64,000 bases of DNA from Sphingobium baderi. Its GTDB lineage: Bacteria; Pseudomonadota; Alphaproteobacteria; Sphingomonadales; Sphingomonadaceae. The DNA lies in contig NZ_CP013264.1 in assembly GCF_001456115.1 (NCBI RefSeq), positions 620,001 through 684,000 of the forward strand, read 5' to 3'. Below the pieces are notes generated by a model. That model made no database searches and was not told the DNA's origin. It worked only from the letters and a program-made list of their open reading frames with translations. Each line of letters opens with the position of its first letter. The first letter of the stretch is position 1. The position numbers and the translations under genes are program-made. Positions 6,771-53,184 of this stretch are shown here, piece after piece.

Positions 6771-7079
6771 TCAGCCCCGCCGCGTACCCGAAAATCCCGC
6801 CGCGCCAAACGCGCCAAGCTGCATCGTGCCGGTGATGGCATCGCCATTCACGTCCGCCTCGCATTCCAGCGTCATCGGCATCGGCAGCGTCATCTCCATC
6901 TTCCACGTCAGCTTGTTGCCATCGACCTTGCCGTCCTTGACGTCGAGCGATCCCATCATGCCCGCAAAGGTGCCATTGAAGCGATCCCCCGCGCTGATGA
7001 CGGTGAAGACGCCGTTCTGGTCGCCCATCGGCGTCTTCGCGACGCAATCATAGGCGCCGTCCACTGCTGCCATATCCAT
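6771..7079 (-). CDS. Conserved hypothetical protein (102 aa)
   Basis: 102 residues; not matched to a named family. The ATG at 7079 is preceded by AAGGGAG three bases upstream, while a second ATG at 7073 is also in frame. The protein has no signal peptide or membrane helix. It is built of alternating short strands: GAYDCVAKTPMGDQNGVFTV, then DRFNGTFAGMMGS, then NKLTWKMEMTLPMPMTLEC. This suggests a small beta-barrel of about eight strands in which a polar Gly-rich pattern repeats. It sits 18 bases downstream of the M16 peptidase gene on the same strand, so it is probably co-transcribed with it. Confidence 0.7.
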   Translation of the reverse strand: MDMAAVDGAYDCVAKTPMGDQNGVFTVISAGDRFNGTFAGMMGSLDVKDGKVDGNKLTWKMEMTLPMPMTLECEADVNGDAITGTMQLGAFGAAGFSGTRRG

Positions 7080-11863: not shown

Positions 11864-14443
11864 ATGAACCTCGAGAAATTCACTGATCGCGCCAAGGGCT
11901 TTCTCCAGTCGGCGCAGACCGTCGCGATCCGCATGAACCATCAGCGGATCACCCCGGAACACCTGCTCAAGGCGCTGCTGGAGGATCAGCAGGGCATGGC
12001 CGCGGGCCTGATCAAGGCCGCCGGTGGATCGCCCGAGATCGCGGTGCGCGATACCGATGCGGCGCTGGCGAAGATACCTGCCGTGTCGGGCAGCGGCGCG
12101 CAGCAGACGCCGGGCCTCGACAATGACGCCGTGCGCGTGCTCGACAGCGCGGAGCAGGTGGCCCAGAAGGCGGGCGACAGCTTCGTCACCGTCGAGCGGC
12201 TGCTGCTGGCGCTGACGCTCGCCTCCACCACGGCGGCGGGCAAGGCGCTCGCCGCGGCGGGCGTGAAGGCCGAGGCGCTCAACGCCGCGATCAACGATCT
12301 GCGCGGAGGCCGCAGCGCCGATACGGCGAGCGCCGAGGACCGCTATGACGCGCTCAAGAAATTCGCGCGCGACCTGACGCAAGCCGCGAAGGACGGTAAG
12401 CTGGACCCGGTGATCGGGCGCGACGAGGAGATTCGCCGCACCATCCAGATCCTGGCGCGGCGGACCAAGAACAACCCCGTCCTCATCGGCGACCCCGGCG
12501 TCGGCAAGACCGCCATCGCCGAAGGGCTGGCGTTGCGTATCGCCAATGGCGATGTGCCCGATACGCTGAAAGACCGCACGCTGATGGCGCTCGACATGGG
12601 GAGCCTGATCGCGGGCGCCAAATATCGCGGCGAGTTCGAGGAGCGCTTGAAGGGCGTGCTCGATGAGGTGAAGGGCGCCGAAGGGCAGATCGTGCTGTTC
12701 ATCGACGAGATGCACACGCTGATCGGCGCGGGCAAGTCCGAAGGCGCGATGGATGCGGGCAACCTGCTCAAGCCCGCTCTGGCACGCGGCGAACTGCACT
12801 GCATCGGCGCGACGACGCTCGACGAATATCGCAAATATGTCGAGAAAGACCCGGCGCTCCAGCGGCGGTTCCAGCCGGTGTTCGTGGGCGAACCGACGGT
12901 GGAGGACACCATTTCCATCCTGCGCGGCCTGAAAGAGAAATATGAGCTGCACCATGGCGTGCGGATCACCGACGGCGCGCTGGTGTCGGCGGCGACGCTC
13001 TCCAACCGCTACATCACCGACCGTTTCCTGCCCGACAAGGCCATCGACCTGATGGACGAGGCGGCGTCGCGCCTGCGGATGGAGGTGGAGAGCAAACCCG
13101 AGGAGATCGAAAATCTCGACCGGCGGATCATCCAGCTCAAGATCGAGCGGGAGGCGCTGAAGAAGGAGACGGACAAGGCGTCGGCGGACCGGCTGGCGGC
13201 GCTGGAAGAGGATCTTGCCAATCTGGAGCAGCAGTCGGCGGAACTGACGCAGCGCTGGCAGGCGGAGAAGGACAAGATCGCGGGCGAAAGCAAGCTCAAG
13301 GAGCAGCTCGATGCCGCGCGGCTGGAACTGGAGCAGGCGCAGCGCGGCGGCGACCTCGCGAAAGCGGGGGAACTGGCCTATGGGCGCATCCCCGAACTGG
13401 AGCGCAAGCTGGAAGAGGCGCAGAACGTCACGCAGGGCGCGATGCTGCGCGAGGAGGTGACGAGCGAGGATATCGCCTCGGTCGTGAGCCGCTGGACTGG
13501 CATCCCCGTCGACAAGATGATGGAGGGCGAGCGCGAGAAGCTGCTCGCCATGGAAGCGGAACTGGGCAAGCGCGTCATCGGGCAGCAGGAGGCGGTGAAG
13601 GCCGTGGCGACCGCCGTGCGCCGTTCACGCGCGGGATTGCAGGACCCGAACCGGCCGCTGGGATCGTTCCTGTTCCTGGGGCCCACGGGCGTGGGCAAGA
13701 CGGAACTGACCAAGGCGCTTGCGGGCTTCCTGTTCGACGACGACAACGCGATGGTGCGGATCGACATGAGCGAGTTCATGGAGAAGCACAGCGTCGCGCG
13801 GCTGATCGGCGCGCCTCCGGGCTATGTCGGCTATGAGGAAGGCGGCGTGCTGACCGAAGCGGTGCGGCGGCGGCCCTATCAGGTGGTGCTGTTCGATGAG
13901 GTGGAGAAGGCGCATGGCGACGTGTTCAACGTGCTGTTGCAGGTGCTGGACGACGGGCGCCTGACCGATGGGCAGGGGCGCACGGTGGACTTCACCAACA
14001 CGATCATCGTGCTGACGTCCAATCTGGGCAGCCAGTATCTGACCAATCTGGCGGACGGCCAGAGCGTCGAGGATGTCGAGCCGCAGGTGATGGAGGTGGT
14101 CCGGGCGCATTTCCGGCCGGAGTTCCTCAACCGCCTGGACGACATCATCCTGTTCCACCGCCTGGGCGCGGACCATATGGCGCCGATCGTCGATATCCAG
14201 GTCGGGCGGGTGCAGAAGCTGCTGAAGGACCGCAAGGTGGTGCTGGACCTGACGGACGGCGCGCGGGCGTGGCTGGGGCGGGTCGGTTACGATCCGGTCT
14301 ATGGCGCGCGGCCGCTCAAGCGGGCGGTGCAGCGTTACCTGCAAGACCCGCTCGCCGACCTGATCCTGCGCGGCGAAGTGCCGGATGGGTCGACGGTGAA
14401 GGTCGAGGAAGGCGATGGCGGGTTGGTGTTGAGGGTGGCTTGA
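11864..14443 (+). CDS. clpB: ATP-dependent disaggregase ClpB
   Basis: 859 residues, the usual ClpB length. An N-terminal Clp repeat domain starts at [18 protein letters not shown]. The first AAA domain has Walker [11 protein letters not shown] (about 209) and Walker [13 protein letters not shown] coiled-coil middle domain (about 400-525, starting [17 protein letters not shown]) separates ClpB from ClpA/ClpC. The second AAA domain has [10 protein letters not shown] (about 606) and [11 protein letters not shown]. No ClpP-binding loop is apparent, as expected. ClpB, with DnaK, dissolves protein aggregates after heat shock. The gene is monocistronic with a strong terminator 18 bases after the stop. 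Confidence 0.98.
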
Positions 14444-14486: not shown

Positions 14487-15194
14487 CTTTTGATACTGAA
14501 AACTGTGCTCAAAACAGCTTGCCGGTTTGCAGCTTCACACCTGCATAAAGGAAGCGACCTACACCGGAAATCGGATAGCTGAGTTCTCCCAGGTCCGGCG
14601 TCTGATCCGTGAAATTGTTGATCCCCGCATAAACCTGGAACCTTTCATCGACTTCATAGGCGAAGCGGATGTCATGTTGCTGAAGCTCTTTGTACCAGAC
14701 ATATTTAGGATCGACGAGATCGGGATTGCCGGTCAATTCCTCCGTCAGATAGCGGCGGGTCTTGCTGGAATAGGTGAAAGTATAGTTGGCGGTGAACTTG
14801 TTCAGTTTCCACACCAGGTCCAATGTACCGCGCCACCGGGGATTGTAAGCCTCCAAAATATCATTATCGATCTCAGCGCCGATGGAAGGAACTTCCGTCT
14901 TCCTGTCCAGATAGCCACCGATCAGGTTGATATTGAAGGTGCCGAGATTCTCGCTGGGCGAAAACACGTAGCGGATGGAGAAATCCGCGCCTGCCGTCCG
15001 CAGCGCGGCCACATTCTGCGGTCGCACATTGAAACCGATGCGACGCTGGATATCGTTGCCGTCACCCAGGACGAAGCCCGTTGCCGGATCACGGAATATA
15101 TTCTCGCAGAACACATTTTCGGCGGTGGGCTGATCCACGCAAAGCCGCGCCAATTCGGTCGGCGTAGGCGTGTTGACGGCATTTTTGATCTTAA

Positions 15195-16651
15195 CAGGCC
15201 GTTGACGAAGTCGGCGGTGGCTGATTCAGTGCGGCAGTGGGATTGTCTGGCGGGTTAGCGGCGATGGCGATGGGGCGTGATAGCGAGGTCCAGTCCGATT
15301 TGATCGTGACGTGGGCGGAGATACCGCGTTCACCGGGGCATGTTTTCTACGACAAGCTCCAGAAGCTGCTGGCCGAGGCGGGCTTCGATGGCTTTGTCGA
15401 GAAGACGTGCAAGCCCTATTATGCGCCGCGGATGGGAGCCCCGTCGCTGCCGCCGGGCCGCTATTTCCGCATGCTGCTGATCGGCTATTTCGAGGGCATC
15501 GACAGCGAACGCGGGATTGTCTGGCGCTGTTCGGATTCGCTGTCGCTGCGGGAGTTCCTGCGACTGTCGAGCCGCGACAAGGTCCCTGATCATAGCTGGT
15601 TGTCGAAGACGCGGAGCCGCCTGCCGCACGAGGTACATGACCAGATCTTCGGCTGGGTACTGGCCCTCGTCGCCGGGCACGATCTGGTGAAAGGCGAGCG
15701 GATCGGCGTCGATGGCTCGACCATGGAGGCGAACGCCGCGCTGCGTACCATCGTGCGGCGTGACAATGGCGAGACCTACCGCGAGATGCTGGTGCGCATG
15801 GCGCAAGAGAGCGGCATCGACACGCCGACGATCGACGACCTTGTCCGGCTCGATCGCAAACGCAAGGGCAAGAAGCTGTCGAATGCGGACTGGGCGAGCA
15901 AGACCGATCCCGACGCGAAGGTCGCGCGGATGAAGAACGGCTCGACGCGTCTGGCCTACAAGCCCGAACACGCGGTCGATCTCGACACGGGTGTTATCGT
16001 GGCAGCGCCGATCCACCCGGCCGACAAGGGCGACACGACAACGCTCGACGCCACGCTGGAGACGGCAGCACGCAACCTCGCCGACATTGGCCTGGCGCCG
16101 ACGTCCGGGGATCCCTGCGATCTTGTGACCGATAAAGGCTATCATTCGCGCGAGCTCCTCAAGGGTCTCGACGGCGACATCTGGAAGACGCGCATCGCCG
16201 AGCCGGCACCGCCGAATGGATATCTGCGCTGGCACGGCGACGAGGCTGCCCAGAAGGCCGTCTACGCCAATCGGTCTCGCCTGAAATCCGCCGTCGGACG
16301 CAAGGCGATGCGCAAGCGTGGTGAGATGGTCGAGCGTAGCTTTGCCCACGTCCTGGATCGCGGCGGCATGCGCCGCGCGTGGCTGCGCGGGCGCGAGAAT
16401 GTTCACAAGCGTTATTTGATCCACGTCGCCGGGTTCAATCTTGGCATTCTCATGCGCGCCCTGTTCGGTTGCGGCACTCCGAGGGGCGCCAGGGGCGCAT
16501 CCAAGGCATTCTTGTTCGTAGTTCAGACCGATGTTGCGCTCGTCATCGCCCTCGTCGCCGAGTTCGACGGAGAAAGGGCCATGCTCCTCATCGTTTTTAC
16601 CCCTGAAGGCGCTGACAGACCCGGCTGAAAACCGACTTCGTCACCGCGCTG
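15195..16651 (+). mobile_element. Insertion sequence, IS1182-like (IS5/IS1182 group), 1457 bp
   Basis: The ends are imperfect inverted repeats: CAGGCCGTTGACGAAGTCGG at 15195-15214 and, on the other strand, CAGCGCGGTGACGAAGTCGG at 16651-16632 (17 of 20 match). TTAA occurs directly outside both ends (15191-15194 and 16652-16655) as a 4-bp target duplication. One transposase gene fills the element, in the orientation opposite to the receptor it interrupts. Intact ends, intact transposase and a perfect duplication indicate a recent insertion. Confidence 0.92.
15264..16628 (+). CDS. DDE transposase of the IS1182-like element
   Basis: 454 residues from the ATG at 15264; GTG at 15237 is an alternative. 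The N-terminal region has PPGRYFRMLLIGYFEGIDSE and WRCSDSLSLREFL, typical of this transposase group. The RNase-H-like catalytic acidic residues are seen in GERIGVDGSTMEAN (D), DLVTDKGYHSREL (D) and GEMVERSFAHVLDRGG (E). It lacks frameshifts, so the element is probably active. It cuts at the inverted repeats and would insert at TTAA, judging from the duplication. The last ~40 residues run almost to the right inverted repeat. Confidence 0.93.
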   Translation: MAMGRDSEVQSDLIVTWAEIPRSPGHVFYDKLQKLLAEAGFDGFVEKTCKPYYAPRMGAPSLPPGRYFRMLLIGYFEGIDSERGIVWRCSDSLSLREFLRLSSRDKVPDHSWLSKTRSRLPHEVHDQIFGWVLALVAGHDLVKGERIGVDGSTMEANAALRTIVRRDNGETYREMLVRMAQESGIDTPTIDDLVRLDRKRKGKKLSNADWASKTDPDAKVARMKNGSTRLAYKPEHAVDLDTGVIVAAPIHPADKGDTTTLDATLETAARNLADIGLAPTSGDPCDLVTDKGYHSRELLKGLDGDIWKTRIAEPAPPNGYLRWHGDEAAQKAVYANRSRLKSAVGRKAMRKRGEMVERSFAHVLDRGGMRRAWLRGRENVHKRYLIHVAGFNLGILMRALFGCGTPRGARGASKAFLFVVQTDVALVIALVAEFDGERAMLLIVFTPEGADRPG

Positions 16652-18954
16652 TTAATGTCGTACCAGTCGAAAGTGAGTGTCAGACCGGGAATGAACCGGG
16701 GTTGCAACACGAGGCCCGCCGTCCACGACTTAGCCGTCTCCTCCGTCAGCAACGGATTGCCGCCGGTCGTTCCGCGCCGGGTCGTATTGACTGAAGGAAC
16801 GGTGGAAGGCGTGAAATTGGCAATCTCGTCCGGGGTCAGGCCAAGGCCGGACAAAATGGTGGCGCAATTCGCGCGGCGATATTGCGTGCCCTCATCCAGC
16901 CGCCTGAAATCGCAAGGGTCCTGAACCTGAAGGAACGTGCCCGTCGCGGGCTGAAACAGTTCGCCGATATTGGGCGCGCGCACCGCCTGCGAATAGGACC
17001 CACGGAACCGCAGATCGGGGATCGGCGCATAAATGCCGTCCACCTTCCATGTGGTCGTCTTGCCTACGGTGCTATAGTCGGAAAAACGTATCGCACCTCC
17101 GACCGAGAGCAGATGGGCGAAACGCATATTGGACAGGATCGGCGCATTCACTTCGCCGAAAAATTCCTTCACGCTGAAACGCCCGCCGCTGATAGGTAGC
17201 GCAGCGAAGTCACGGAATTCGCCGTTCTGAATCAGCGCATCGGGCGTCTCGCGGCTCTTTTCGCGACGATATTCTCCGCCCAGCGCGAAGCCGAAGGAAC
17301 CGCCGCCGGGGAAGGTGAAAACCGAATCCAGGTTGCCCGAAACGGACCCCGTCACCACTTCCTGCGAAATCTTGGAGCGGCTGACATTGTCGGCCAGCAC
17401 GAAGGCGAGCGCTTCAGGATCGGCCACGCCATTGCCCAAAACATTGAGCGGACGACAGGCGCTACCCGCGCCCGGCGTGAAGGTTGTGGCAGGACCGCCA
17501 AAATTATCCGGATCGATGACACCGCCATAGGCAAGCGTCGACCGGCAGACGATATCCCCCGTCACAGGATCACGCACCGCATCCAGCGCCGCATAGTAGC
17601 GGTCGCCGATCAGATTGGCGGTCTGACGGTTACGGACCTTGGTTTCGCCATAGATATAGGAAACATCATAGTTGAGATTGTCGGTAATTGCGCCGTCAAA
17701 GCCGAGCACGATACGCTTAGTCTTGCGCTTTACGGTTTCGCCGCGAATGCCGAAGTCGTAATTGTCACGCGATACCAAGGCACCGTCCGGCGCGGCGCCC
17801 GCACCAAACCGGTCGGCCAGATAAGCATTGTCCGGCTGAAGATAAGTGAAGAAATCGAAGCTGGGCTGAGCCACGGAATAGGCTTTGGTCTCGACATATT
17901 TGCCCTCTGCATAGAAGCGGATGGCGGGGGAGAATTCATAGCTGGCCAGCATATTGAACATGTGCCGGTTCTGCGATGGTTGAAGATCGCCGAAATAGCC
18001 GGCAACCGGCGTGTTCGATCCGCCGACCGCACGCGCATTACCGCCGATCAGGATTTGCCCTCGATCATAAGGAAGACCGCTGCCGGTGAAATCGGGGATG
18101 CCGTCGAGATCGAGATCCACGGCACCATCGGGCGAACTGTCGGCCCAGGTCAGATTGCTATAGGGAATCCGATCAGGAACGTTGGGATCATCATCCAAGT
18201 CATCCTGATTCTGAAGGATTTCCCTATATTTCGCAGGATTTCCCGAAAATCCGCGCGCAAAGGGGCTAAGACGATCGGACTTATTATATTCATATGCAAC
18301 CGCAATGTTGCCGCGCCCTTCCGCGAAATTCTTGCCCGCCGTCACGCTGAAATAGCGATTGGCTGCGTCACCCTTGGACGAAATGCCGGATTGGGCGCGC
18401 GCGGTCAGTCCTTCGAAATTGCGCTTGAGCACGAAATTGACCACGCCCGACACGCCATCCGCGCCGTAAATCGCCGATGCGCCGCCCGTTAGAACGTCAA
18501 CCCGTTCGATCAGATCTTCGGGAATAGTGTTGATATCCACAGCCGCCGAATTGGCGATGCCGGCGACGTGGCGCTTACCGTTCACGAGAACGAGTGTCCG
18601 CTCCTCCCCCAGATTGCGGAGATTGAGCAGGTTGACGCCCGTCTCACCAAAGCCCGCGTCCGCGCCTCCGGACAGCGAACTGCCGGTGGAAGCCGAAAGT
18701 GCAGGATTGCGCAAAAGAATATCGGTCAGGTTGGTACGGCCTGTCTGCTCGATCTGTTCGGCAGAAACCGCAACGATGGGATTGGCGACATCCAGTTCCG
18801 GTCGCGCAATACGCGAACCCGTAACGACAATTATCGGTTCATCTTCCCCTTGGGTCGATTCCTGCGCCATGGCATAGGATGAAATCAAAGCCATGCCGAT
18901 AGCGATCGACCCAGCACTGTTCCGCAAACTTGCTGTTTTCGATATGATTTTCAC

Positions 18955-19086
18955 TGTCCAGTCCCTTGCTCTGGAGTTCGAGAGAATGTTCTGCTCTCTC
19001 AACAATCACGCGATAGGGATTTATGCCCGACAGCATCCCGCGCATGAGTGGCTTTGAAACTGCGGATGGCGAGAGGAACTGTAAAG
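18955..19086 (-). promoter_or_regulatory. Structured 5' leader of the split receptor gene, shared with its paralogue
   Basis: Reading toward the GTG, the leader holds CTTTACAG (19079-19086), GCTGTCGGGCAT (19023-19034), a GAGAG/CTCTC hairpin, and a 5-bp stem TCCAG (18971-18975)/CTGGA (18957-18961) whose loop AGCAAGGGA contains the ribosome-binding site. The same elements in the same order, at nearly the same distances, precede the paralogue starting at 23050. The shared block next to the start is identical over 22 bases. A role in translational control is inferred. Confidence 0.55.
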
Positions 19087-19335
19087 ACAGAGAAAATGAC
19101 TCCAGTTGATTATGCTGCCAACTGTAGCAAATCTATCACAGGGTTTCTATATAGCGCCAATTAGAAATTATATTATAACTATCTTATAAAAATAGAAATG
19201 ATATAATGTCACATTTGTCGTATTTATAATTATATAAATGATTTATTTAAATTACACCTAGTATAAATAATATAGATTATATTCATATCTATTATATTAT
19301 TTATATTAATATAATACTATATAGGTAAAATTATC
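19087..19335. other. Extremely A+T-rich intergenic segment between receptor and oxygenase genes
   Basis: No gene is seen. By hand count only about 39 of the 240 bases 19141-19380 are G or C, against a clearly GC-rich background. It must contain the divergent promoters for the receptor (-) and the oxygenase (+), and many TATAAT-like stretches are present, too many to choose one. CAGTTG/CAACTG forms a 6-bp inverted repeat at about 19112-19133. Confidence 0.6.
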
Positions 19336-20055
19336 ATGAATATATCCTATAAGATAAATTCAAATCTTAATTTAGATATAATAAAAGATACCTATAAGTC
19401 AGCTGGACGAGTTAGAATTTCAGATTTTCTCGATTCTTCCTTTGCTGAAGCATTATTATCTGCTCTCGTGCAACGTGCCGACTGGATGCAAGTCATCAAT
19501 TCCGGTGACAGGATATTTGAGCTGTCCCGAGAATTGAGGCGATCCTTTGACGACGATAGAAACAAAAATCTCGAGGAAGCAATCAAGAATAGCGCCCGGT
19601 ACGGGTTCCAATATCGCTATGAAACCATCCGTGTTCCTGATGATATAGGTCAAAGAAACCCGGACGATATCCTGCATTTTTTCGTCAATTTCATGAATTC
19701 CCGGCCTGTTATCGAATTCATGCGCGAAATCACGGGCGATGAAGAGGTTGACTTTGTGGATGCACAAGCCACGGCTTATGGATCAGGCGATTTCCTGTCG
19801 CGTCATAACGACGCCATCGACGGCAAGCATAGACGCGCGGCCTATGTTCTTGGCCTCACTCGATCATGGCGATTTGAATGGGGCGGCCTGCTCATGTTTC
19901 ATGAAGGAGAAACCGCCTCCGCCTGGCTGCCGACCTTCAACGGCCTGAGTCTGTTTTCCGTTCCTCAAGACCACAGTGTAAGTCTGGTGACGTCCTTTGC
20001 CGATCAACGCCGCTATTCAGTCACCGGCTGGCTAAGGTCGTTCCACGAGAAATAA
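19336..20055 (+). CDS. 2-oxoglutarate/Fe(II)-dependent oxygenase (prolyl-hydroxylase-like)
   Basis: 239 residues. The double-stranded beta-helix iron motif is visible: FLSRHNDAIDGKHRRAAYVL (HxD), then a distal His in FSVPQDHSVSLVTSF and the 2-oxoglutarate-binding Arg in DQRRYSVTGWLR. This fits small prolyl-4-hydroxylase-type oxygenases that hydroxylate proteins or small substrates using 2-oxoglutarate and oxygen. It lies between two TonB-dependent receptor genes, an arrangement seen repeatedly in sphingomonads and Caulobacter, where oxygenases travel with receptors. The first ~40 codons are very A+T-rich (ATA, AAA, TTA), unlike the rest. No ribosome-binding site stands out. Confidence 0.85.
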   Translation: MNISYKINSNLNLDIIKDTYKSAGRVRISDFLDSSFAEALLSALVQRADWMQVINSGDRIFELSRELRRSFDDDRNKNLEEAIKNSARYGFQYRYETIRVPDDIGQRNPDDILHFFVNFMNSRPVIEFMREITGDEEVDFVDAQATAYGSGDFLSRHNDAIDGKHRRAAYVLGLTRSWRFEWGGLLMFHEGETASAWLPTFNGLSLFSVPQDHSVSLVTSFADQRRYSVTGWLRSFHEK

Positions 20056-20088
20056 ATAAGGGGCAGAGTTCCCACTCCGCCCCTTATT
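20055..20088 (+). terminator. Bidirectional rho-independent terminator between oxygenase and receptor genes
   Basis: AATAAGGGGC (20055-20064) pairs with GCCCCTTATT (20079-20088), extended inside by GAGT/ACTC. It begins at the oxygenase stop codon and precedes the receptor stop (20111) on the other strand, so it can serve both converging genes. Confidence 0.85.
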
Positions 20089-20110
20089 CCCAATATAGAC
20101 TGGACGCGGA

Positions 20111-23050
20111 TCAGAAGCGAAGCTTCGCCGAGATCGAGAGATAGCGTCCCAGAACATCATAAGTGCTAGGCAGTGTGTTGGACTGCTCGCCGTTACCGCC
20201 GGTCTGCTGGCTGATAACGAAGGGCGGACGCTTGTCGAACAGGTTCGACACAGTGCCGGTGAGGCTGAAATTATCCGTGATGTCGGCCGCGAGGGCCAAA
20301 TCGAAATAATTGAAAGCCTTGATCTTTTCCACCGCATAGGTGGTGTTCGGATCATCATCGCGCACGCCGCCCGTGTAACGCCATTGCACCGAAGTCGTTA
20401 TCTTACCGAAGTCGAGAGTAGTGCGGAGAGAATGGCGCCACTTCGGAATCGGCTGGCCCGACGGCACCGAAGTGCTGCACGCCACGCCGAACTTGCCGAC
20501 GCATTCATTGACGATCGGCACGCCAACGACGGGCGTGAAGTCATATTTGAAAACGCGCGTGCCGTTGAAGTTCAGCGACAGTTTCGGTTCATCGCCGGCA
20601 ATCGTGAACGGCAGCGGCGTGGTGTAGCCCAACGAGATATCCAGACCGTCGGTCTTGAGGCCACCCGAATTCTGGTTCTGGTCGACGATCCGTTCCACCT
20701 GACCGAGCGAGTTACGCGAAATTAGGTCACAGAAGGACTGAATGCCCTGGTCAAAACAGCCCGCAAAGATATTGCCTTGGCCATAAGGGCTGATGAAACC
20801 CGTGATCTTGATCTTGTAATAGTCAACCGTCGCGCTGAAACCGGGCAACAGGCCGGGCGTCAAGACCGCACCGATGGTAAAGGTCTTCGACTTTTCTTCG
20901 CGCAGATCCGCATTACCCGACTGGAACGATGGCGGATTCACCAGGTTCGAGTCGTTGGTGTTCGGATCGCCCACATATTGGGCGGGCACGCCATTGGCGA
21001 TACAGGCCTGACCCAATGCGCTGGTCGGCGTCACACCGGCATTGCCGCACGGATCGCTCTGGCCGTCAAAGCTGACGGTCTGCCCCAGATACAGCTCGTT
21101 GACGCTGGGACCACGGATTGCCCGCTGGAACTGGCCACGGAAGCCGATGCCCTTGACAACTTCAAGCTGCGCGCCTGCCGCCCAGGTGAACACATTGCCC
21201 GGCGCGTTGGAATAATGCGTGAAACGCGCCGCGCCGTTGACTTCAAACCGCTTCACGAAGGTGTCGGCCAGAAGCGGAACATTCACTTCGCCGAAGAATT
21301 CGCGAACACTGTAGCCACCCGATGTGGGCGCGCCAGGATTGAAGCCGCCGACATTGCCCGATGCCAGGAAGGTGTCGGGCGTGGTGCTGCCCCGTTCCGA
21401 ACGCCATTCCGCGCCGAGCGCGACGCCGACGCCGCCTGCGCCGAGATCGAACAGGCTGGAGTTGGTGAAGGCGACGCTGGCAACCTGGGTCGTGTATTCC
21501 TCCAGATTGGTCGCGCCAATGCCGAGATAAGCGGCCGCGTCGGAGGAAAGATTACCCGTGCCGAAGAGATTCGCCGGGACGCAGCCCGCCTGACGCGCAT
21601 CGGCCGAAGAGCAGACAAGCGTGCCCCCATTGGGCTCACCCGCGAACGGGAAGGGCGAGATGTTACCGGCCGAATCCTGGAAAGCGGTACGAGTCGCAGC
21701 CAGGAAATTGGTCAGAGCAACATTGCCCGTCTGACGCTGGGAATTCTTGGTCCGGGCATACATGTAGTAGCCGTCATAGGACCAGCCCGCTCCCAGGTCG
21801 CCTTCCGCACCGACGACGATCCGGAAAGCGCTGCGATCATCCTGATTGAGGCGGCCGCCCAGGCCCAAGGTGCGGAAACCATAGGCCGGGACGCTGACAT
21901 AGCCATCGCCATCCGTATCAAGACCGTTCAATGCAGCCTGAAGTTCAGGCGAGAAGTAGGGCGAATTCGCCTGGATGTCGAAAGCGCCCAGCGACCCTGC
22001 GTTCACGCCGGTGCCAAAGGGGGTGGAGTTGCCCAGCGGCGTCGCGGCAAGCAGGTTGTCAACGCGATTGTTGACATATTGCGCTTCCATATAGGGCTTG
22101 AAGATGCTGCTCACCTCATATTGCGCGCGCGCGGAGATGAGGAAGCGTTCCTGCGGAACCTGCAGATAGTTCGCGGGATTGGTGTTATAGGCGTTGGCCG
22201 ATGAGTCATATGCACTCGGGCTGCCATCCGGGTTGAAGAAGATTGCACTGTTCGGAAGTCCCAGCGCGGCATTCAGGCCGGGAACCTGGATACGACCCTC
22301 AGGGATCGAACCGGAACCGCCGGGGCTGAAAGTGCCGTCCTGGTTATCGTTGAAACTGTCACGCGACCAGCTACGTTTGCTGGCGAAGATCGCCTTGCGC
22401 TTGTAATAATCGAGCGAAAGCGTGACGTTACCGCGGTTGTCATCGAAATTGGCGCCGATGGTGCCATTGATGTCCCAACGCGCGCCATCGCCACGGCTGC
22501 TGAGCTCGTATGTCGAATTGAGTTCGATGCCTTCAAAGTCGCGCTTCAGGACGAAGTTGACGACACCGGCGATCGCGTCCGACCCGTAAACGGCCGAGCG
22601 GCCACCCGTCACCACGTCCACGCGCTCAATCAGCGCCTGCGGAATGGTGTTGAGGTCGACGACCTGATTGACGTCATAGGACATGTAGCGGCGGCCATTG
22701 ACCAGCACCAGCGTACGCGAAGTGCCAAGGCCGCGAAGGTCGACGGTCGCGATGCCGCCGCCGGGATTGTTCGACGTGCCCGTCGACGAACCCATGACCT
22801 GTGGCAGATCGTTGAGGACGCTCTCGACGTTGGTCTGGCCCTTAAGCGCAAACTGCTCGGCCGACACCACCGCAATGGGGCTAGCCTGGTCGAGGTCCGG
22901 CCGCGCGATACGCGAACCGGTAACGATGATAGTGGCTTCGCCTTCGTCGGCGGCCCCGCCCTGTGCAAATGCAGCAGCAGGAAGCATCGCGCCCACAATG
23001 AATGGCGCGACACCGGCGCGCAGAAGCGCGGTTTTCGAAAGTTTCTTCAC
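20111..23050 (-). CDS. TonB-dependent receptor, intact paralogue
   Basis: 979 residues from the GTG at 23050 (AAGGGA seven bases upstream). Signal peptide ends near PAAAFAQGG. The plug domain opens with ATIIVTGSRIARPDLDQASP and includes ALIERVDVVTGGRSAVYGSD; the 22-strand barrel follows and the protein ends in YLSISAKLRF, with the C-terminal Phe used for barrel assembly. The family takes up siderophores, vitamins, peptides or sugars using TonB energy; the substrate is unknown. It is clearly paralogous to the IS-split receptor (same plug sequence, same leader) and may partly compensate for its loss. Confidence 0.93.
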   Translation of the reverse strand: MKKLSKTALLRAGVAPFIVGAMLPAAAFAQGGAADEGEATIIVTGSRIARPDLDQASPIAVVSAEQFALKGQTNVESVLNDLPQVMGSSTGTSNNPGGGIATVDLRGLGTSRTLVLVNGRRYMSYDVNQVVDLNTIPQALIERVDVVTGGRSAVYGSDAIAGVVNFVLKRDFEGIELNSTYELSSRGDGARWDINGTIGANFDDNRGNVTLSLDYYKRKAIFASKRSWSRDSFNDNQDGTFSPGGSGSIPEGRIQVPGLNAALGLPNSAIFFNPDGSPSAYDSSANAYNTNPANYLQVPQERFLISARAQYEVSSIFKPYMEAQYVNNRVDNLLAATPLGNSTPFGTGVNAGSLGAFDIQANSPYFSPELQAALNGLDTDGDGYVSVPAYGFRTLGLGGRLNQDDRSAFRIVVGAEGDLGAGWSYDGYYMYARTKNSQRQTGNVALTNFLAATRTAFQDSAGNISPFPFAGEPNGGTLVCSSADARQAGCVPANLFGTGNLSSDAAAYLGIGATNLEEYTTQVASVAFTNSSLFDLGAGGVGVALGAEWRSERGSTTPDTFLASGNVGGFNPGAPTSGGYSVREFFGEVNVPLLADTFVKRFEVNGAARFTHYSNAPGNVFTWAAGAQLEVVKGIGFRGQFQRAIRGPSVNELYLGQTVSFDGQSDPCGNAGVTPTSALGQACIANGVPAQYVGDPNTNDSNLVNPPSFQSGNADLREEKSKTFTIGAVLTPGLLPGFSATVDYYKIKITGFISPYGQGNIFAGCFDQGIQSFCDLISRNSLGQVERIVDQNQNSGGLKTDGLDISLGYTTPLPFTIAGDEPKLSLNFNGTRVFKYDFTPVVGVPIVNECVGKFGVACSTSVPSGQPIPKWRHSLRTTLDFGKITTSVQWRYTGGVRDDDPNTTYAVEKIKAFNYFDLALAADITDNFSLTGTVSNLFDKRPPFVISQQTGGNGEQSNTLPSTYDVLGRYLSISAKLRF

Positions 23051-23209
23051 GGTCCAGTCCCTTGCTCTGGAGTGAAGGCAGTTTCCTGCCCCCATTATGG
23101 TCCTAAGGAGAGATATGCCCGACAGCGTTCCCCTTGTGGATTGGCGGAAATTGCGCGGGACTGGGGTCATCTGTAAAGCGCGCTCACAGCGCGCGCACTG
23201 CTTTTACAG
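23051..23209 (-). promoter_or_regulatory. Structured 5' leader of the intact receptor gene
   Basis: The leader shares with the paralogue the CTTTACAG box (23171-23178), GCTGTCGGGCAT (23115-23126) and the TCCAG/CTGGA stem (23067-23071/23053-23057) presenting the ribosome-binding site in its loop. In addition CTGTAAA (23171-23177) and TTTACAG (23203-23209) form an outer inverted repeat that encloses a perfect GCGCGCT-CAC-AGCGCGC hairpin (23178-23194). A GGCAG/CTGCC hairpin sits closer to the start. Function is inferred from conservation only. Confidence 0.55.
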
Positions 23210-23437
23210 CGGGCTGTATCATAAATGCAACAAACTGGCGCCGGGGTAAAAATCGGGGAAAGCAATATTATTACAACGTTCCCAGGTGACCATATTCATT
23301 GCTGCAGACGACGGAGTTTTGCTTGACCGATTATGCCATTTCCATGGTTTTTCGGGCTCTTTGACACCTCTCTTGACGCAGGGAGCTTCGGGTGCTTGCT
23401 AGCTCTGGCATTTGCCGGGAAGCGATGGAGAAAGCCG

Positions 23438-23977
23438 TTGACCAAAACATCACACGTCCTTGTTCTTGCCATCGCCTTCGGCCTGGCGTTGCAAAATGCA
23501 CGCGCTGCGCCCCCTCAACAGCCTCGTCCCGAAATCTTCACCGACCTGCTGAAATGCCGCGACATTGCAATGGATTCACAACGACTCGCTTGTTTTGATC
23601 GGCAGGTCGCCGATATGCAGGCGGCATCGGATCGCGATGAAGTCGTGATTTTGGACAAGGCTGAATTGCACAAAACGCGGCGGACGCTTTTTGGCTTTTC
23701 CTTTCCCAAACTGCCTTTCCTTGACGGCGACGACGATGCGAAAAAGGAAGAAGAAGGGTTTTCCCGTATCCAGACCACCATCGCCTCGGTCAAAAATCTT
23801 GGTTATGGGAAATGGCAGATCCAGTTGGAGGACGGCGCACAATGGATGACGACGGAACCCATCATCCGCCGCACTCCGAAAGCGGGCATGACGATAGAAA
23901 TCCGCCGCGCCAGCATGGGCAGCTTCATGGGCAAGATCGAAGATGATCGCGCCGTGCGGATGAAGCGCGTCGGCTGA
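23438..23977 (+). CDS. Conserved hypothetical exported protein with a CRDI...RLACFD motif
   Basis: 179 residues from a TTG at 23438, chosen because GGAG (23427-23430) lies seven bases upstream and the frame then opens with a clean signal peptide (MTKTSHVLVLAIAFGLALQ, cleavage after NARA). A longer frame starts at ATG 23333. After the signal comes KCRDIAMDSQRLACFDRQV, a two-cysteine motif found in several exported proteobacterial proteins. An acidic/lysine stretch (DGDDDAKKEEEG) and a beta-rich C-terminal half (GKWQIQLEDGAQWMTTEP) follow. Function unknown. It is convergent with the M23 peptidase gene. Confidence 0.7.
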   Translation: MTKTSHVLVLAIAFGLALQNARAAPPQQPRPEIFTDLLKCRDIAMDSQRLACFDRQVADMQAASDRDEVVILDKAELHKTRRTLFGFSFPKLPFLDGDDDAKKEEEGFSRIQTTIASVKNLGYGKWQIQLEDGAQWMTTEPIIRRTPKAGMTIEIRRASMGSFMGKIEDDRAVRMKRVG

Positions 23978-23983
23978 GTCGTT

Positions 23984-24835
23984 TCATTCTGCCGACGGCA
24001 TCGCCCCCGCCAGCAACAGCGGGTCGATCCGGGCGTCGTTCCACTTCATGCTCCAGTGGAGATGCGGGCCGGTGGCGCGGCCCGTCGCGCCGACCGCGCC
24101 GATGCGTTGCCCTTGGGACACATGCTGTCCGGGACTCACGTCGATCCGCGACAGGTGCAGGAAGGCGCTGTTGAGGCCGTGGCCGTGGTCGATCATCAGC
24201 AGATTGCCCTCCAGCGTGAAGGGCCTGTCCGCCGCGAGGATCACCACGCCGTCGGCCGGGGCGACGACAGGCTCTCCCGTCGCGCCCGCCACGTCCACGC
24301 CGCTGTGATAGGCGCCGGGCGTGCCCTGATAGATGCGTTGCGCGCCGAACAGGCCGGAGATACGGCCCCGGCGCGGCCAGATGAACCGCTGCCGCCAGCC
24401 CTGCGCGTCCGTCACCGTGGCGCGGGCGGCGGCGATGCGGTCAAGTTCAGGCTTGCGGATCGCCATGAAGGCTTCCGTGCTTTTCGTGGGACGCATGGGG
24501 GCGTTGATGCGCTCCAGACGCCAGGCGCGCGGCGCGATGGTGAGCGGGCGCTCCATGACGCGGCCATCGGCGAGGCGCGCGGTGAGGCGTGCCTGCGGGC
24601 CTGCGTCGCGATCGAAGGCGATGAGGAAGCGGCCATCGCGCTCGACGGGGACGGGCTGGCCGTTCAAGCGCAGATCGACCGTTGCCGATGGGGCAGTGCC
24701 GAGCATCACCCCGCCCTGCGTCATTTCGCCCGACAAGCGGAAATCGTAAGCGGCGACGGCAACGGACGGAGCAGGCGCGGACGGCGCTGCGACCGCGGTC
24801 AACGCCAACGCCGCGGCCGCCAGGAAGAACTTCAT
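23984..24835 (-). CDS. M23-family metallopeptidase (LytM domain), exported
   Basis: 283 residues with a signal peptide (MKFFLAAAALALTAVAAPSA). The N-terminal half is a beta-rich domain. The C-terminal LytM domain (about 160-275) has the zinc motif YHSGVDVAG (HxxxD) and the HLHW pair near the end, with the intervening MIDHGHGLNSAFLHLS. These residues suggest an active endopeptidase cutting peptidoglycan cross-links in the periplasm. The start ATG overlaps the stop of the DUF2093 gene upstream (ATGA), so the two are translationally coupled. It could be a lytic enzyme in division or envelope remodelling. Confidence 0.9.
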   Translation of the reverse strand: MKFFLAAAALALTAVAAPSAPAPSVAVAAYDFRLSGEMTQGGVMLGTAPSATVDLRLNGQPVPVERDGRFLIAFDRDAGPQARLTARLADGRVMERPLTIAPRAWRLERINAPMRPTKSTEAFMAIRKPELDRIAAARATVTDAQGWRQRFIWPRRGRISGLFGAQRIYQGTPGAYHSGVDVAGATGEPVVAPADGVVILAADRPFTLEGNLLMIDHGHGLNSAFLHLSRIDVSPGQHVSQGQRIGAVGATGRATGPHLHWSMKWNDARIDPLLLAGAMPSAE

Positions 24836-25044
24836 CCTTCGCCGCGGGCTTTCAGTTCGGCGCGGGCGGAGACTTCGGCGCTGGCATAGGGTTCCTGCCG
24901 CGATATGCTCCAGTAACGCAGATTTTCGAGCGCGATCTTCTGCCCGGTCACCGCGCAGATTACATGATCGCCCGCCTGCAACACGCGGAAGCTGTAGGGC
25001 ATATAATGCAGCCGGGCGGCGCGGTCGCGGTTGGACATCAGCAT
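24832..25044 (-). CDS. DUF2093 small protein
   Basis: 70 residues from ATG 25044 (or 68 from ATG 25038). The sequence AARLHYMPYSFRVLQAGDHV followed by CAVTGQKIALENLRYWS is the signature of the alphaproteobacterial DUF2093 family. Its CAVTG and YWS features hint at a small metal- or nucleic-acid-binding fold, but nothing is established. The gene lies between xseA and the M23 peptidase on the same strand, with 31 bases to xseA and an ATGA overlap with the peptidase. The longer upstream frame runs into xseA and is not coding. Confidence 0.85.
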   Translation of the reverse strand: MLMSNRDRAARLHYMPYSFRVLQAGDHVICAVTGQKIALENLRYWSISRQEPYASAEVSARAELKARGEG

Positions 25045-25075
25045 TTCAGGCGGCCTCTTACACGGGTCGGGGGCG

Positions 25076-26578
25076 TCAGGAAAACAGATCCTGTTGCCGG
25101 ATTTCCTCTTCGCTACGCGGTTTGCGGGGCGGGCGGGACGGAATCGATATAGCCGCAGGGGCGGGCTTCTCAAGAGGTGGCGCGCCATCGACGGCGGCGT
25201 CCACCTCTCCATCGCGGAAATGGAGCGTGACCTGCCCGGCAGCGCGGGCGGCGGTCGTGTCGCGGATCAGGTGGCCGCCCGCCATGACACGCGCAAACCC
25301 GCGCTGGAGCGGCCGGTCGGGATCGAGCGAGACGAACAGGCGCGAGAGGCGGTCGAAAGCGGTGGAACGCTCCGCCAGCGCGCGGGCAAGATAGTCAGGA
25401 CGCAGCTTCAGGCGGTCCACCCGCTCCTTCGCGCGGCTCACATATTGCTGGAGCAGCGCGGGGCGAAGCGCCCCGGCTGCCTGGCTGAGATGCGTCCGGG
25501 CATTGGCAAGGCGGTGGCGCAGGCCGCTGGCAAGCGCGTCGGAAAGCTGGTCGAGCCGCTGCCGCTGGGGCGCGAGCAGCGTGTCGGGCGTGGGCATGAG
25601 CCGCGCCTGCATCTCCAGCCGCTCGCGCGCCTGCGCCGCGCCGCGCCGGACGGCCCGGTCCATGCGGAGGCCCTGTTCGCGCAGCATGGCCAGCAGCTCG
25701 GCGCGGACCGGCACGGCCATTTCTGCAGCGGCGGTGGGCGTGGGCGCGCGCATGTCGGCGGCATAATCGCAAAGGGTGGTGTCGGTTTCGTGGCCGACGG
25801 CCGAGATGATCGGGATCGAACATTCCGCCACGGCGCGGACGACGATTTCCTCGTTGAAGCTCCACAGATCCTCGATGGAGCCGCCGCCGCGCGCGACGAT
25901 GACGAGATCGGGTCGCGGCAGCGCGCCACCGGCGGGCATGGCGGAAAAGCCGCGCACGGCACGGGCCACCTGCGCCGCCGCGCCTTCGCCCTGCACCAGC
26001 ACCGGCCAGAGCAGCACATCGGTCGGGCAGCGGTCCGACAGGCGGTGGAGGATGTCGCGGATGACGGCGCCGGTGGGCGAGGTCACGACGCCGATGGTGC
26101 GCGGCATGAAGGGCAAGGGACGTTTACGGTCGCGGTCGAACAGGCCCTCTCCCGCCAGTTTCGCCTTGAGCTTTTCGAGGAGCGCCATCAGCGCGCCCTC
26201 CCCGGCCAGTTCCATCCGGTCGATGACGATCTGATATTTGGAGCGGCCGGGATAGGTGGTGAGCTTGCCGGTGGCGATCACCTCCACCCCGTCCTGCGCG
26301 GCGAAGGCCAGGCGGGCGGCGCCGCCTTTCCACATCACGCCGTCGATGACGGCATTATCGTCCTTGAGCGCGAGATAGAGGTGGCCGGACGCCGCACGCT
26401 TGAAGCCGGAAATTTCGCCGCGCAGGCGGACATGGCCGAAACGGTCCTCCACCGTGCGCTTGAGCAGCGAGGACAATTCGCTCACGGACAGCGGCGGCGC
26501 GTTGTCCCCCGCCCGTTCCTCCGCTAACAGGCGACCCGAACTGTCATAGGCATCGAAATCCGGGGACATGGGCGACAT
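25076..26578 (-). CDS. xseA: Exodeoxyribonuclease VII large subunit
   Basis: 500 residues from ATG 26578; AAGG lies six bases upstream, while ATG 26569 would be three codons shorter. The OB-fold N-terminus ([20 protein letters not shown], about 50-70) is followed by the catalytic region with [38 protein letters not shown] and [21 protein letters not shown] long coiled-coil follows. With XseB it degrades single-stranded DNA in both directions. XseB is not encoded in the window. It is divergent from purD with overlapping start codons. Confidence 0.97.
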
Positions 26579-27860
26579 GAACATCCTTCTGCTTGGCGGC
26601 GGCGGCCGCGAACATGCGCTGGCGTGGAAGCTGGCGCAATCGCCGCGCCTCAAAACATTGTATGCCGCGCCGGGCAATCCGGGCATAGCGCAGCATGCGA
26701 CGCTGGTCGACCTCGACGCGAAGGATCATCGCGCGGTCGTCGATTTCTGCATCCGCCATTCCATCGGGCTGGTGGTGATCGGCCCGGAAGCGCCGCTGGT
26801 CGATGGCCTTGCCGACAATCTGCGCGCGACGGGGACGCCGGTGTTCGGGCCGGGCAAGAAGGCGGCGCAGCTGGAAGGCTCCAAGGGCTTCACCAAGGAT
26901 CTGTGCAAGCGCGCGAATATCCCCACCGCCGCCTATGAACGCGTGACCAGCAAGGACGGCGCGATCGCGGCGCTGGACGATTTCGCGCTGCCGGTGGTCA
27001 TCAAGGCCGATGGGCTGGCGGCGGGCAAGGGCGTCATTATCGCGGAGACGCGGGAGGAGGCGCTGGAGGCGCTGGACACCATGTTTTCCGGCGCGTTCGG
27101 CGCGGCGGGCGAGGAAGTGGTGCTGGAGGAATATATGCGCGGGGAGGAAGCGAGCTTCTTTGCGTTGACGGACGGGAGCGCGATCCTGCCCTTCGGCTCC
27201 GCACAGGATCACAAGCGGGTGGGCGATGGCGACACCGGACCGAACACGGGCGGCATGGGCGCCTACAGCCCGGCGCGGGTGCTGACGGCGGAGCTGGAGC
27301 AGCAGGTGATGGAACGGATCATCCGGCCGACCGTGGAGACGCTGGCCGCCGAGGGGACGCCTTATTCGGGCGTGCTCTATGCCGGGCTGATGCTGACGGA
27401 CGAAGGTCCGAAGCTGATCGAATATAATGCCCGGTTCGGCGATCCGGAATGTCAGGTGCTGATGATGCGCTTCGACGGCGATCTGGTGGAATTGCTGCTG
27501 GCGGTCGCGGACGGAACGCTGGCCGATCAGGGTCCGGTGGAACTGGCGGATCGCACCGCGCTCACCATCGTCATGGCGGCAAACGGCTATCCGGGGACAC
27601 CGGAAAAGGGCGGCGTCATCACCGGGATCGACGCGGCGCAGGCAGGCGGCGCGCGGGTTTTCCATGCGGGCACGGCGGAAAAGGACGGCGCGATCGTCGC
27701 GACGGGCGGCCGCGTGCTGAACGTCACGGCGACGGGGCAAAGCGTGCGCGAGGCGCAGAAAGCAGCCTATGCGGCGGTGGACGCGATCGACTTTCCGACC
27801 GGCTTTTGCCGCCGCGATATCGGCTGGCGGGAAGTCGCGCGGGAAGAAACCGTGGCCTGA
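26577..27860 (+). CDS. purD: Phosphoribosylamine-glycine ligase
   Basis: 427 residues from ATG 26577 ([19 protein letters not shown]); an ATG at 26568 would add three residues but its GGGG is too close. The ATP-grasp fold shows the N-terminal GGGGREHAL nucleotide-binding loop, [23 protein letters not shown] in the grasp region (about 150), [13 protein letters not shown], and [15 protein letters not shown]. It joins glycine to phosphoribosylamine in step two of purine synthesis. It is the first gene of a short plus-strand run leading to the helix-hairpin-helix protein gene. Confidence 0.98.
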
Positions 27861-53097: not shown

Positions 53098-53184
53098 GCC
53101 CAGATGGCGGAATTGGTAGACGCACCAGCTTCAGGTGCTGGCGATCGCAAGGTCGTGGAGGTTCGAGTCCTCTTCTGGGCACCA
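53098..53184 (+). tRNA. tRNA-Leu (CAG anticodon), island integration site
   Basis: 87 bases with CCA encoded. Acceptor stem GCCCAGA/TCTGGGC, anticodon stem CCAGC/GCTGG with loop TTCAGGT (CAG), a long variable arm typical of leucine tRNA, and a T-loop TTCGAGT. The 3' end from 53162 onward is repeated at 63063-63092 with one base missing, marking the attachment site of the island. Confidence 0.95.

Follow-up and report, generated by a model that had tools for sequence, protein, structure and literature searches.

A conserved structured leader precedes variable TonB-dependent receptor genes at a common locus in sphingomonads

Two genes for TonB-dependent receptors lie close together on the minus strand of a 64,000-nucleotide stretch of Sphingobium baderi DNA (RefSeq contig NZ_CP013264.1, positions 620,001 to 684,000; hereafter the window), and both begin behind leaders that share the same words in the same order, while the receptors themselves are 35% identical to each other. 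What does such a leader do, and why is it kept in front of different receptors? Comparison among sphingomonads reveals a conserved, structured leader at a common locus, where the receptor body is decoupled from the flank, the leader and the signal peptide, with a break near the residues VTGSRI. We favor, with a probability of about 0.6, the reading that a constant expression site occurs twice in tandem in the window, composed of operator, promoter, a leader with three hairpins (P2, P3 and P4) and signal peptide, to which exchanged receptor bodies are attached. A leader kept in place while the receptor differs with little regard to species kinship suggests an RNA family not described before, located where receptors are exchanged.

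Two Receptor Genes Share the Words of Their Leaders

An earlier note on this DNA had reported three shared words ahead of a GTG start codon in each leader, the last constant over 22 bases, with different hairpins between. All of these features were located on the minus strand (Table 1). The words are CTTTACAG, GCTGTCGGGCAT and a last block, ACTCCAGAGCAAGGGACTGGAC, which is identical over exactly 22 bases in both leaders, and the hairpins just upstream of that block indeed differ (GAGAG/CTCTC in leader 1, GGCAG/CTGCC in leader 2). The span first reported, 18955-23209, narrowly excludes the receptor 1 GTG and a palindrome upstream of receptor 2 (23215-23232). At up to 3 mismatches the 20-base P4 block occurs twice in the 4.58-Mb genome, in these two leaders only.

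Two explanations of the shared words were considered and rejected. They do not encode protein, since copies differ by single bases in how far P4 lies from the start codon, and therefore no reading frame is kept. Nor do they stem from recent duplication, given how little the two receptors resemble each other and that the block recurs across genera.

The Receptor Body Is Decoupled from a Constant Head

Wherever the flanks could be read, the leader looks to sit at one syntenic locus. Of 95 fetched loci, 72 showed the gene for an M23 peptidase upstream, a count limited by the short upstream sequence available at many of them, and 20 showed clpB downstream. Upstream extension of 18 loci revealed M23, xseA or purD at 14 and only a relative of the unknown open reading frame (ORF) of the window's upstream flank at the remaining 4, one of which has another receptor gene nearby.

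The flank provides a measure of kinship against which each part of the receptor gene can be compared. This comparison used 48 of 50 usable loci (two were dropped at 97% M23 identity, and window receptor 1 was left out) and required M23 matches to exceed 200 amino acids (aa). Similarity of the leader, promoter and signal peptide followed M23 similarity, with Spearman coefficients of 0.73, 0.59 and 0.54, respectively, versus 0.04 for the receptor body; Mantel permutations gave values as high in 0 of 300 cases for each of the first three and in 65 of 300 for the body. In the 139 pairs with M23 identity of at least 75%, leader, signal peptide and body had median identities of 79%, 84% and 39%, respectively, and the bodies of 71 of these pairs were less than 45% identical.

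The break between head and body lies near residues 40-45, at VTGSRI, after which identity drops in 107 same-lineage pairs and climbs in 20 different-lineage pairs; both sets were picked by body identity, with one manual addition to the 20, several of the 20 represent a widespread body type, and the position of the break alone is informative in them. Loci L102 and L133, both from genus g72, share 81% of the leader and 70% of the signal peptide, with bodies that are 34% identical. The L133 receptor, though from a genus other than that of the window, has a body 79% identical to that of receptor 2 and a signal peptide 37% identical. When the L133 locus was extended (L182), an oxygenase gene was found in the same place beside the receptor-2-like receptor as in the window.

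A tree test was based on a quick tree of 36 selected loci. By M23, the 11 Sphingorhabdus-type loci make up a single clade (support 100); for their bodies, the approximately unbiased test rejects one (p 3.3e-5). This group had been named from its leader type once pairwise identities were known but before tree building. The receptor tree is thus discordant with the flank tree at a syntenic site, as expected of a variable receptor locus, and the discordance is between species, with one genome each. There are also points that weigh against free exchange of bodies. Bodies still cluster by lineage, with 7 changes compared with a shuffled mean of 13.2 and 0 of 200 shuffles as low. Moreover, the 85 bodies fall into 20 types at 55% identity, and the largest of these, with 35 members, may be ancestral and partly vertical.

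Distribution of the Leader

A pattern combining CTTTACA with the P4 core was scanned against one genome for each of 84,980 species and matched 76 stretches. A receptor-like frame starts a few bases on in 75 of them, where the N termini were judged by eye and several frames are cut by the end of the fetched piece. The titles of 72 of these 75 name sphingomonads, and the other 3 come from bins whose titles say no more than "bacterium" or "Proteobacteria bacterium." The 76th stretch (L061, Parabacteroides goldsteinii) has no start codon in place and was counted as chance and dropped.

Covariance models, the check proposed in the earlier note, were then applied. Model R1, built from 22 leaders, placed the leader in at least 46 of 397 family genomes at E ≤ 0.01, which is a lower bound because only 7 candidates per genome were scored and the filters were strict. 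Of its 48 matches, 23 were examined further, including the 16 weakest (to E 0.0095), and each precedes a receptor-like frame. The wider model R2 recovered the leader in 90 of 94 genomes of the genus (81 of 83 good assemblies). It is present once in 85 of the 90 matching genomes and twice in 5, a copy number that does not fit the suggestion of an element common to many receptor messenger RNAs (mRNAs) as a regulon. Draws from the order and the class, made with strict filters and few candidates scored per genome, yielded matches in 15 of 296 genomes, all of the same family, and in 1 of 289, the window's own; in the genomes sampled under these settings, no leader was found outside the family.

Tandem and Plasmid-Borne Copies

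Tandem leader-bearing receptors are present in the window and at L186, L187 and L188, where they lie 6.3, 6.4 and 7.0 kb apart, respectively. The second receptors of L186 and L187 start with TTG and have a leader of other sequence; model R2 found the second leader of genome G898 weakly and missed that of G862. In these second copies (L186 at 6619; L187, minus strand, at 6966), GTTTACAG is accompanied by a P4 loop that differs in letters or length from that of the first copy. A relative of receptor 2, 62% identical, is carried by a 20-kb S. yanoikuyae plasmid typed as conjugative. Upstream of it (L184 16822-16990) the palindrome, CTTTACA and GAGCAAGGGAC are present, the CCAG/CTGG stem of P4 is absent, and R2 matches weakly (18.7 bits, E 0.004). 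The plasmid also has a GTG with a four-codon open frame ahead of the annotated start.

Tandem arrangement raises the possibility that no foreign bodies were imported, and that ancient tandem paralogues were instead sorted among lineages while gene conversion homogenised their 5' regions. The spacing of 4-7 kb between leader-bearing receptors in the window, L186, L187 and L188 is in keeping with this history, as is a break that falls at a motif common to the receptors compared. However, leaders and signal peptides track flank kinship, a receptor from another genus (L133) has a body 79% identical to receptor 2, and the 62% relative resides on a plasmid of conjugative type. We regard the paralogue history as a serious possibility, though a doubtful one, and retain exchange of bodies behind a constant expression site as the preferred reading.

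Hairpins P2 and P3 Show Compensatory Changes

The leader is predicted to fold into P2, a 5' stem-loop, followed by P3 and P4. The tip of P2 is GCTGTCGGGC in most Sphingobium leaders and another sequence elsewhere, while the sequence of P3 varies freely among leaders. Both hairpins were evaluated in three alignments made with MAFFT without structure guidance, A4 (36 sequences), A5 (10) and A6 (11). Both-sided changes were present at 13 of 26 pairs in A4 (shuffled mean 8.2; 2 of 500 shuffles as high), at 8 of 28 in A5 (5 of 500 as high) and at 9 of 31 in A6 (0 of 500 as high), and A4 contained 51 cells with both-sided changes compared with a shuffled mean of 13.4 (0 of 500 as high). When partners were slid along the alignments, paired cells dropped from 90-96% to 51% or less. 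The search for compensatory changes that the earlier note had proposed was therefore positive for P2 and P3, as expected of a structured cis-regulatory leader, while P4 gave one change only, the swap of its outer pair from U-A to A-U in L191.

By folding energy, the predicted transcripts are more stable than their shuffles, and the upstream DNA is not. In 62 of the 97 aligned copies, compared with shuffles, the mean z score was -1.96 for the predicted transcript, -2.39 for the P2 segment and -0.17 for the upstream DNA. The 97 copies comprise 67 of the 76 loci L038-L113 (without L061, L072, L074, L079, L082, L090, L101, L106 and L108), the window's two leaders and 28 later loci. Five leaders of the genus (L190, L191, L193, L194 and L195) are longer than those of the window, with about 170-185 bases from CTTTACA to the start codon, and retain CTGTCGGGC and P4.

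Several results weigh against this structure. The structures used for A4-A6 were derived from those very alignments, which favors them. In A3, an alignment fitted to structure, both-sided changes occur at all 7 modelled P2 pairs, but 442 of 500 shuffles match that, although the 165 cells with both-sided P2 changes exceed the 78 in shuffles (0 of 500 as high). RNAalifold, run on the full A3 alignment of 97 copies, found P4 as the sole hairpin. Neither leader 2 nor its P2 segment is significant alone (z -1.41 and 0.24, respectively), and the minimum free energy structure of leader 2 would sequester the ribosome-binding site if transcription began at or before CTTTACAG. In this leader CCCCAGTCCC can pair with the ribosome-binding site; as a general switch this pairing was rejected because CCCCAGTCCC also precedes the predicted transcription start, and the other 11 folded leaders are without that sequence.

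A structured leader on a receptor mRNA recalls the cobalamin riboswitch, which forms the leader of btuB-type receptor genes. Unlike that riboswitch, the leaders match no Rfam family: a search with the Rfam 15 covariance models gave no family at gathering score on the leaders, a tRNA at 53098-53181 as the only match in the window, and three sub-threshold matches near the locus, none of them on the leaders. A riboswitch with P2 as its aptamer and GCUGUCGGGC at the apex would be consistent with the conservation of the apical sequence in most Sphingobium leaders. However, that sequence differs in other groups, so that a conserved ligand-binding core is lacking, and one leader goes with different receptor bodies. 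A leader that persists through such changes is unlikely to sense the substrate of its own receptor, and we consider a riboswitch, as the earlier note had allowed, improbable.

P4 Displays the Ribosome-Binding Site

P4 is a 5-bp hairpin in which TCCAG and CTGGA enclose a loop, A..AAGGG(A/G), that contains the ribosome-binding site. This placement, noted earlier for the window's pair, was upheld by folding of the 62 leaders, in which the ribosome-binding site has a mean predicted unpaired probability of 0.77 and P4 is formed with a probability of 0.66. No variation was found at the four inner pairs across the 97 aligned copies, of which 67 came from the pattern that fixes the P4 core, 5 more fit it, and the window's 2 supplied it. 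The invariance in the 67 copies is no evidence for P4, because the pattern imposes it. More telling are 23 copies that the model found and whose loops differ (7 to 10 bases long, AAGGGA or AAGGGG); all of them keep CCAG/CTGG, as do the 6 of 6 weak genus matches examined, L191 among them, out of 95 rows of the R2 genus search. Support for P4 is thus a matter of conserved letters and a flexible loop, with little covariation.

At about -5 to -6 kcal/mol at 37 °C, P4 is of the moderate stability that an RNA thermometer might have. Thermometers of the ROSE and fourU types hold the ribosome-binding site in a paired stem, but here it sits in the loop, predicted to be mostly unpaired at 37 °C, and not in a stem that would melt; the thermosensor once suggested for these leaders is accordingly most improbable.

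CsrA/RsmA-binding hairpins display GGGA in a hairpin loop over the ribosome-binding site. The P4 loop likewise displays GGGA but, unlike for those hairpins, no CsrA gene was found in this genome (PF02599 matched in 0 of 1, compared with 3 of 14 control genomes), and P4 as a CsrA target was rejected. Pairing of a trans-acting small RNA with the loop would account for the displayed bases, A..AAGGG, kept in nearly all copies. However, the genome holds no antisense copy within 3 mismatches of 20, which leaves short seeds possible, and loop length and some loop bases differ between genera; we judge such an RNA unlikely.

P4 might also act without any regulator, simply as a strong site of translation initiation, the ribosome picking the displayed site, and P2 and P3 merely stabilizing the mRNA in the manner of ompA. 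The predicted accessibility of the ribosome-binding site and formation of P4, searches of the genome that gave neither a CsrA gene nor, allowing 3 mismatches in 20, a long antisense match elsewhere, and retention of the leader across different receptors are all compatible with this simpler account. Against it, the letters CCAG/CTGG are kept in the 23 copies with other loops and the 6 weak matches beyond what a generic hairpin needs. A site without a regulator is therefore possible but somewhat doubtful.

A Promoter-Like Element and Palindrome Precede the Leader

Upstream of P2, TTTACA-N16/17-GCA is present in 82 of 86 distinct copies, and this spacing suits a -35/-10 pair, from which we conclude that CTTTACAG is probably promoter DNA rather than RNA. 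Thus, the earlier interpretation of the shared words as an RNA regulator holds in that the receptor genes have a real structured leader, and fails for this word, probably a promoter element. A consensus -10 is absent, but this is not decisive because, according to one study, the majority of the alphaproteobacterial sigma-70 promoters analysed have no T at -7 (PMC8407463). Transcription would start at a conserved A about 7 bases past GCA, so that the P2 stem would begin almost at the 5' end.

An 18-bp palindrome, TGT-N12-ACA, lies at a near-fixed offset upstream of CTTTACA in 89 of 90 distinct copies, and the pooled upstream sequence contains 99 matches to this pattern compared with 2.1 after shuffling, which makes it a candidate operator. 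A search for the combination of operator and promoter elsewhere in the genome with a strict pattern, outside which the receptor 1 palindrome falls, gave 1 match, receptor 2 itself.

Receptors and Neighboring Genes in the Window

The organism is close to Sphingobium wenxiniae, with XseA 97% identical and receptor 2 99.8% identical to those of L103. The signal peptide of receptor 2 spans approximately residues 1-33, as judged by eye, and its body is variable from about residue 40. Receptor 1 is interrupted by an insertion sequence, which splits it into a 785-aa frame that starts at the GTG and a detached C-terminal part, and its S. wenxiniae counterpart (L097) is open over 994 aa. The gene for a 2OG-Fe(II) oxygenase lies near some receptors (6 of 95 loci, plus L182 and L187), as though it were exchanged along with them; the loci bearing it are the window, L043, L064, L092, L097, L098, L099, L182 (395-1102) and L187. 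The unknown ORF of the upstream flank had no match in Pfam or NCBIfam, and its relatives adjoin the locus in other genera at 31-73% identity, apart from near-identical L103. The names given to the M23, xseA, purD and clpB genes are presumptive, assigned from sequence and not from a family search.

Table 1. Coordinates of the leaders, receptor genes and flanking features in the window
Feature	Position	Strand	Remarks
Leader 1 words	CTTTACAG from 19086; GCTGTCGGGCAT 19034-19023; P4 block 18976-18957; GTG 18954-18952	-	
Leader 2 words	CTTTACAG from 23178; GCTGTCGGGCAT 23126-23115; P4 block 23072-23053; GTG 23050-23048	-	
Palindrome of receptor 1, TGTGATAGATTTGCTACA	19123..19140	-	class TGT-N12-ACA; candidate operator, 36 bases before CTTTACA
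Palindrome of receptor 2, TGTTGCATTTATGATACA	23215..23232	-	class TGT-N12-ACA; candidate operator, 36 bases before CTTTACA
Promoter-like element of receptor 1	19058..19086	-	CTTTACA, 16 bases, GCAGTT
Promoter-like element of receptor 2	23149..23178	-	CTTTACA, 17 bases, GCAATT
P2 of leader 1, 5' stem-loop, apical GCTGTCGGGC	19003..19050	-	predicted from fold of near-identical L097; compensatory changes in A4; segment z -1.73
P2 of leader 2, apical GCTGTCGGGC	23101..23140	-	predicted from fold of near-identical L103; compensatory changes in A4
P3 of leader 1, GAGAG/CTCTC hairpin	18978..19002	-	predicted from L097 fold; compensatory changes in A4
P3 of leader 2, GGCAG/CTGCC hairpin	23073..23094	-	predicted from L103 fold; compensatory changes in A4
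P4 of leader 1, CTCCAG-AGCAAGGGA-CTGGA	18957..18976	-	ribosome-binding site in loop
P4 of leader 2	23053..23072	-	same 20 bases as leader 1
TonB-dependent receptor 1, 5' part	16600..18954	-	GTG start; Pfam Plug and beta-barrel; gene broken by insertion sequence
Receptor 1, C-terminal remainder	14509..15153	-	Pfam beta-barrel
IS1182-like transposase gene inside receptor 1	15237..16628	+	NF033551, E 7.6e-53, 180 bits, under the model cut-off of 270
TonB-dependent receptor 2	20111..23050	-	979 aa; GTG start; Pfam Plug and beta-barrel
2OG-Fe(II) oxygenase gene between receptors	19336..20055	+	convergent with receptor 2; Pfam PF13661
Upstream flank, present at many loci	23333..27860	mixed	unknown ORF, M23 peptidase, xseA, purD
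Unknown ORF	23333-23977	+	upstream flank
M23 peptidase gene (presumed)	23984-24835	-	
xseA (presumed)	25076-26686	-	
purD (presumed)	26568-27860	+	
clpB (presumed)	11864..14443	+	downstream flank

Discussion

How might a constant leader serve changing receptors? Transcription would begin just before P2, and the 5' end of the mRNA would then be a stem-loop that protects it. The P4 loop would display the ribosome-binding site next to the start codon, which is GTG, ATG or TTG, and the hairpin, almost invariant in both stem and loop, may be the control point, read by a trans factor or by the ribosome itself. In this manner the leader could fix mRNA stability, translation and so receptor dose, whichever receptor is attached.

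Parts of this arrangement have known counterparts. The 5' leader of ompA, which encodes an outer-membrane protein of Escherichia coli, opens with a stem-loop at its very 5' end and forms more hairpins ahead of the ribosome-binding site. The sphingomonad leaders resemble it in layout, with hairpins ahead of the ribosome-binding site in an outer-membrane protein mRNA; they differ in that a near-invariant hairpin places the ribosome-binding site itself in its loop, and in having a variable gene body. In Campylobacter fetus, the sapA surface-layer genes have a constant 5' region and variable bodies, which switch within a strain. Here, too, a constant head is joined to different bodies but, in contrast to sapA, the differences are between species.

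A study on Pseudomonas describes the fpvA pyoverdine receptor locus as variable, with a receptor tree independent of the species phylogeny and fpvA varying together with adjacent nonribosomal peptide synthetase genes (PMC11366639). The sphingomonad locus, like fpvA as presented there, is a variable locus for a TonB-dependent receptor (PMC11366639). Unlike at fpvA so described, a fixed leader and signal peptide here accompany changing bodies, and the clustered neighbors include no recurrent synthetase gene. By analogy, the sphingomonad site may work like a protective leader of the ompA type joined to a variable receptor locus of the fpvA type. Our literature search, which covered few subscription journals, returned nothing on sphingomonad receptor leader RNAs or on a variable receptor locus.

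A fuller version of the constant expression site can be put forward only tentatively: a dedicated receptor expression site of sphingomonads, which would stay with the chromosome and into which bodies, some of them on conjugative plasmids, would be recombined at VTGSRI, with a dedicated P4-binding factor setting the dose. If this holds, cells would change their phage, bacteriocin or nutrient profile with regulation unchanged.

The leader is an RNA without an Rfam counterpart that was found in nearly all searched genomes of one genus, and at the receptor site that it marks, the regulation of the gene and the identity of the receptor seem to evolve independently. Two directly testable questions follow: what reads a near-invariant ribosome-binding hairpin in a genome that yielded no CsrA, and whether receptor exchange at this site drives phage resistance or niche change.

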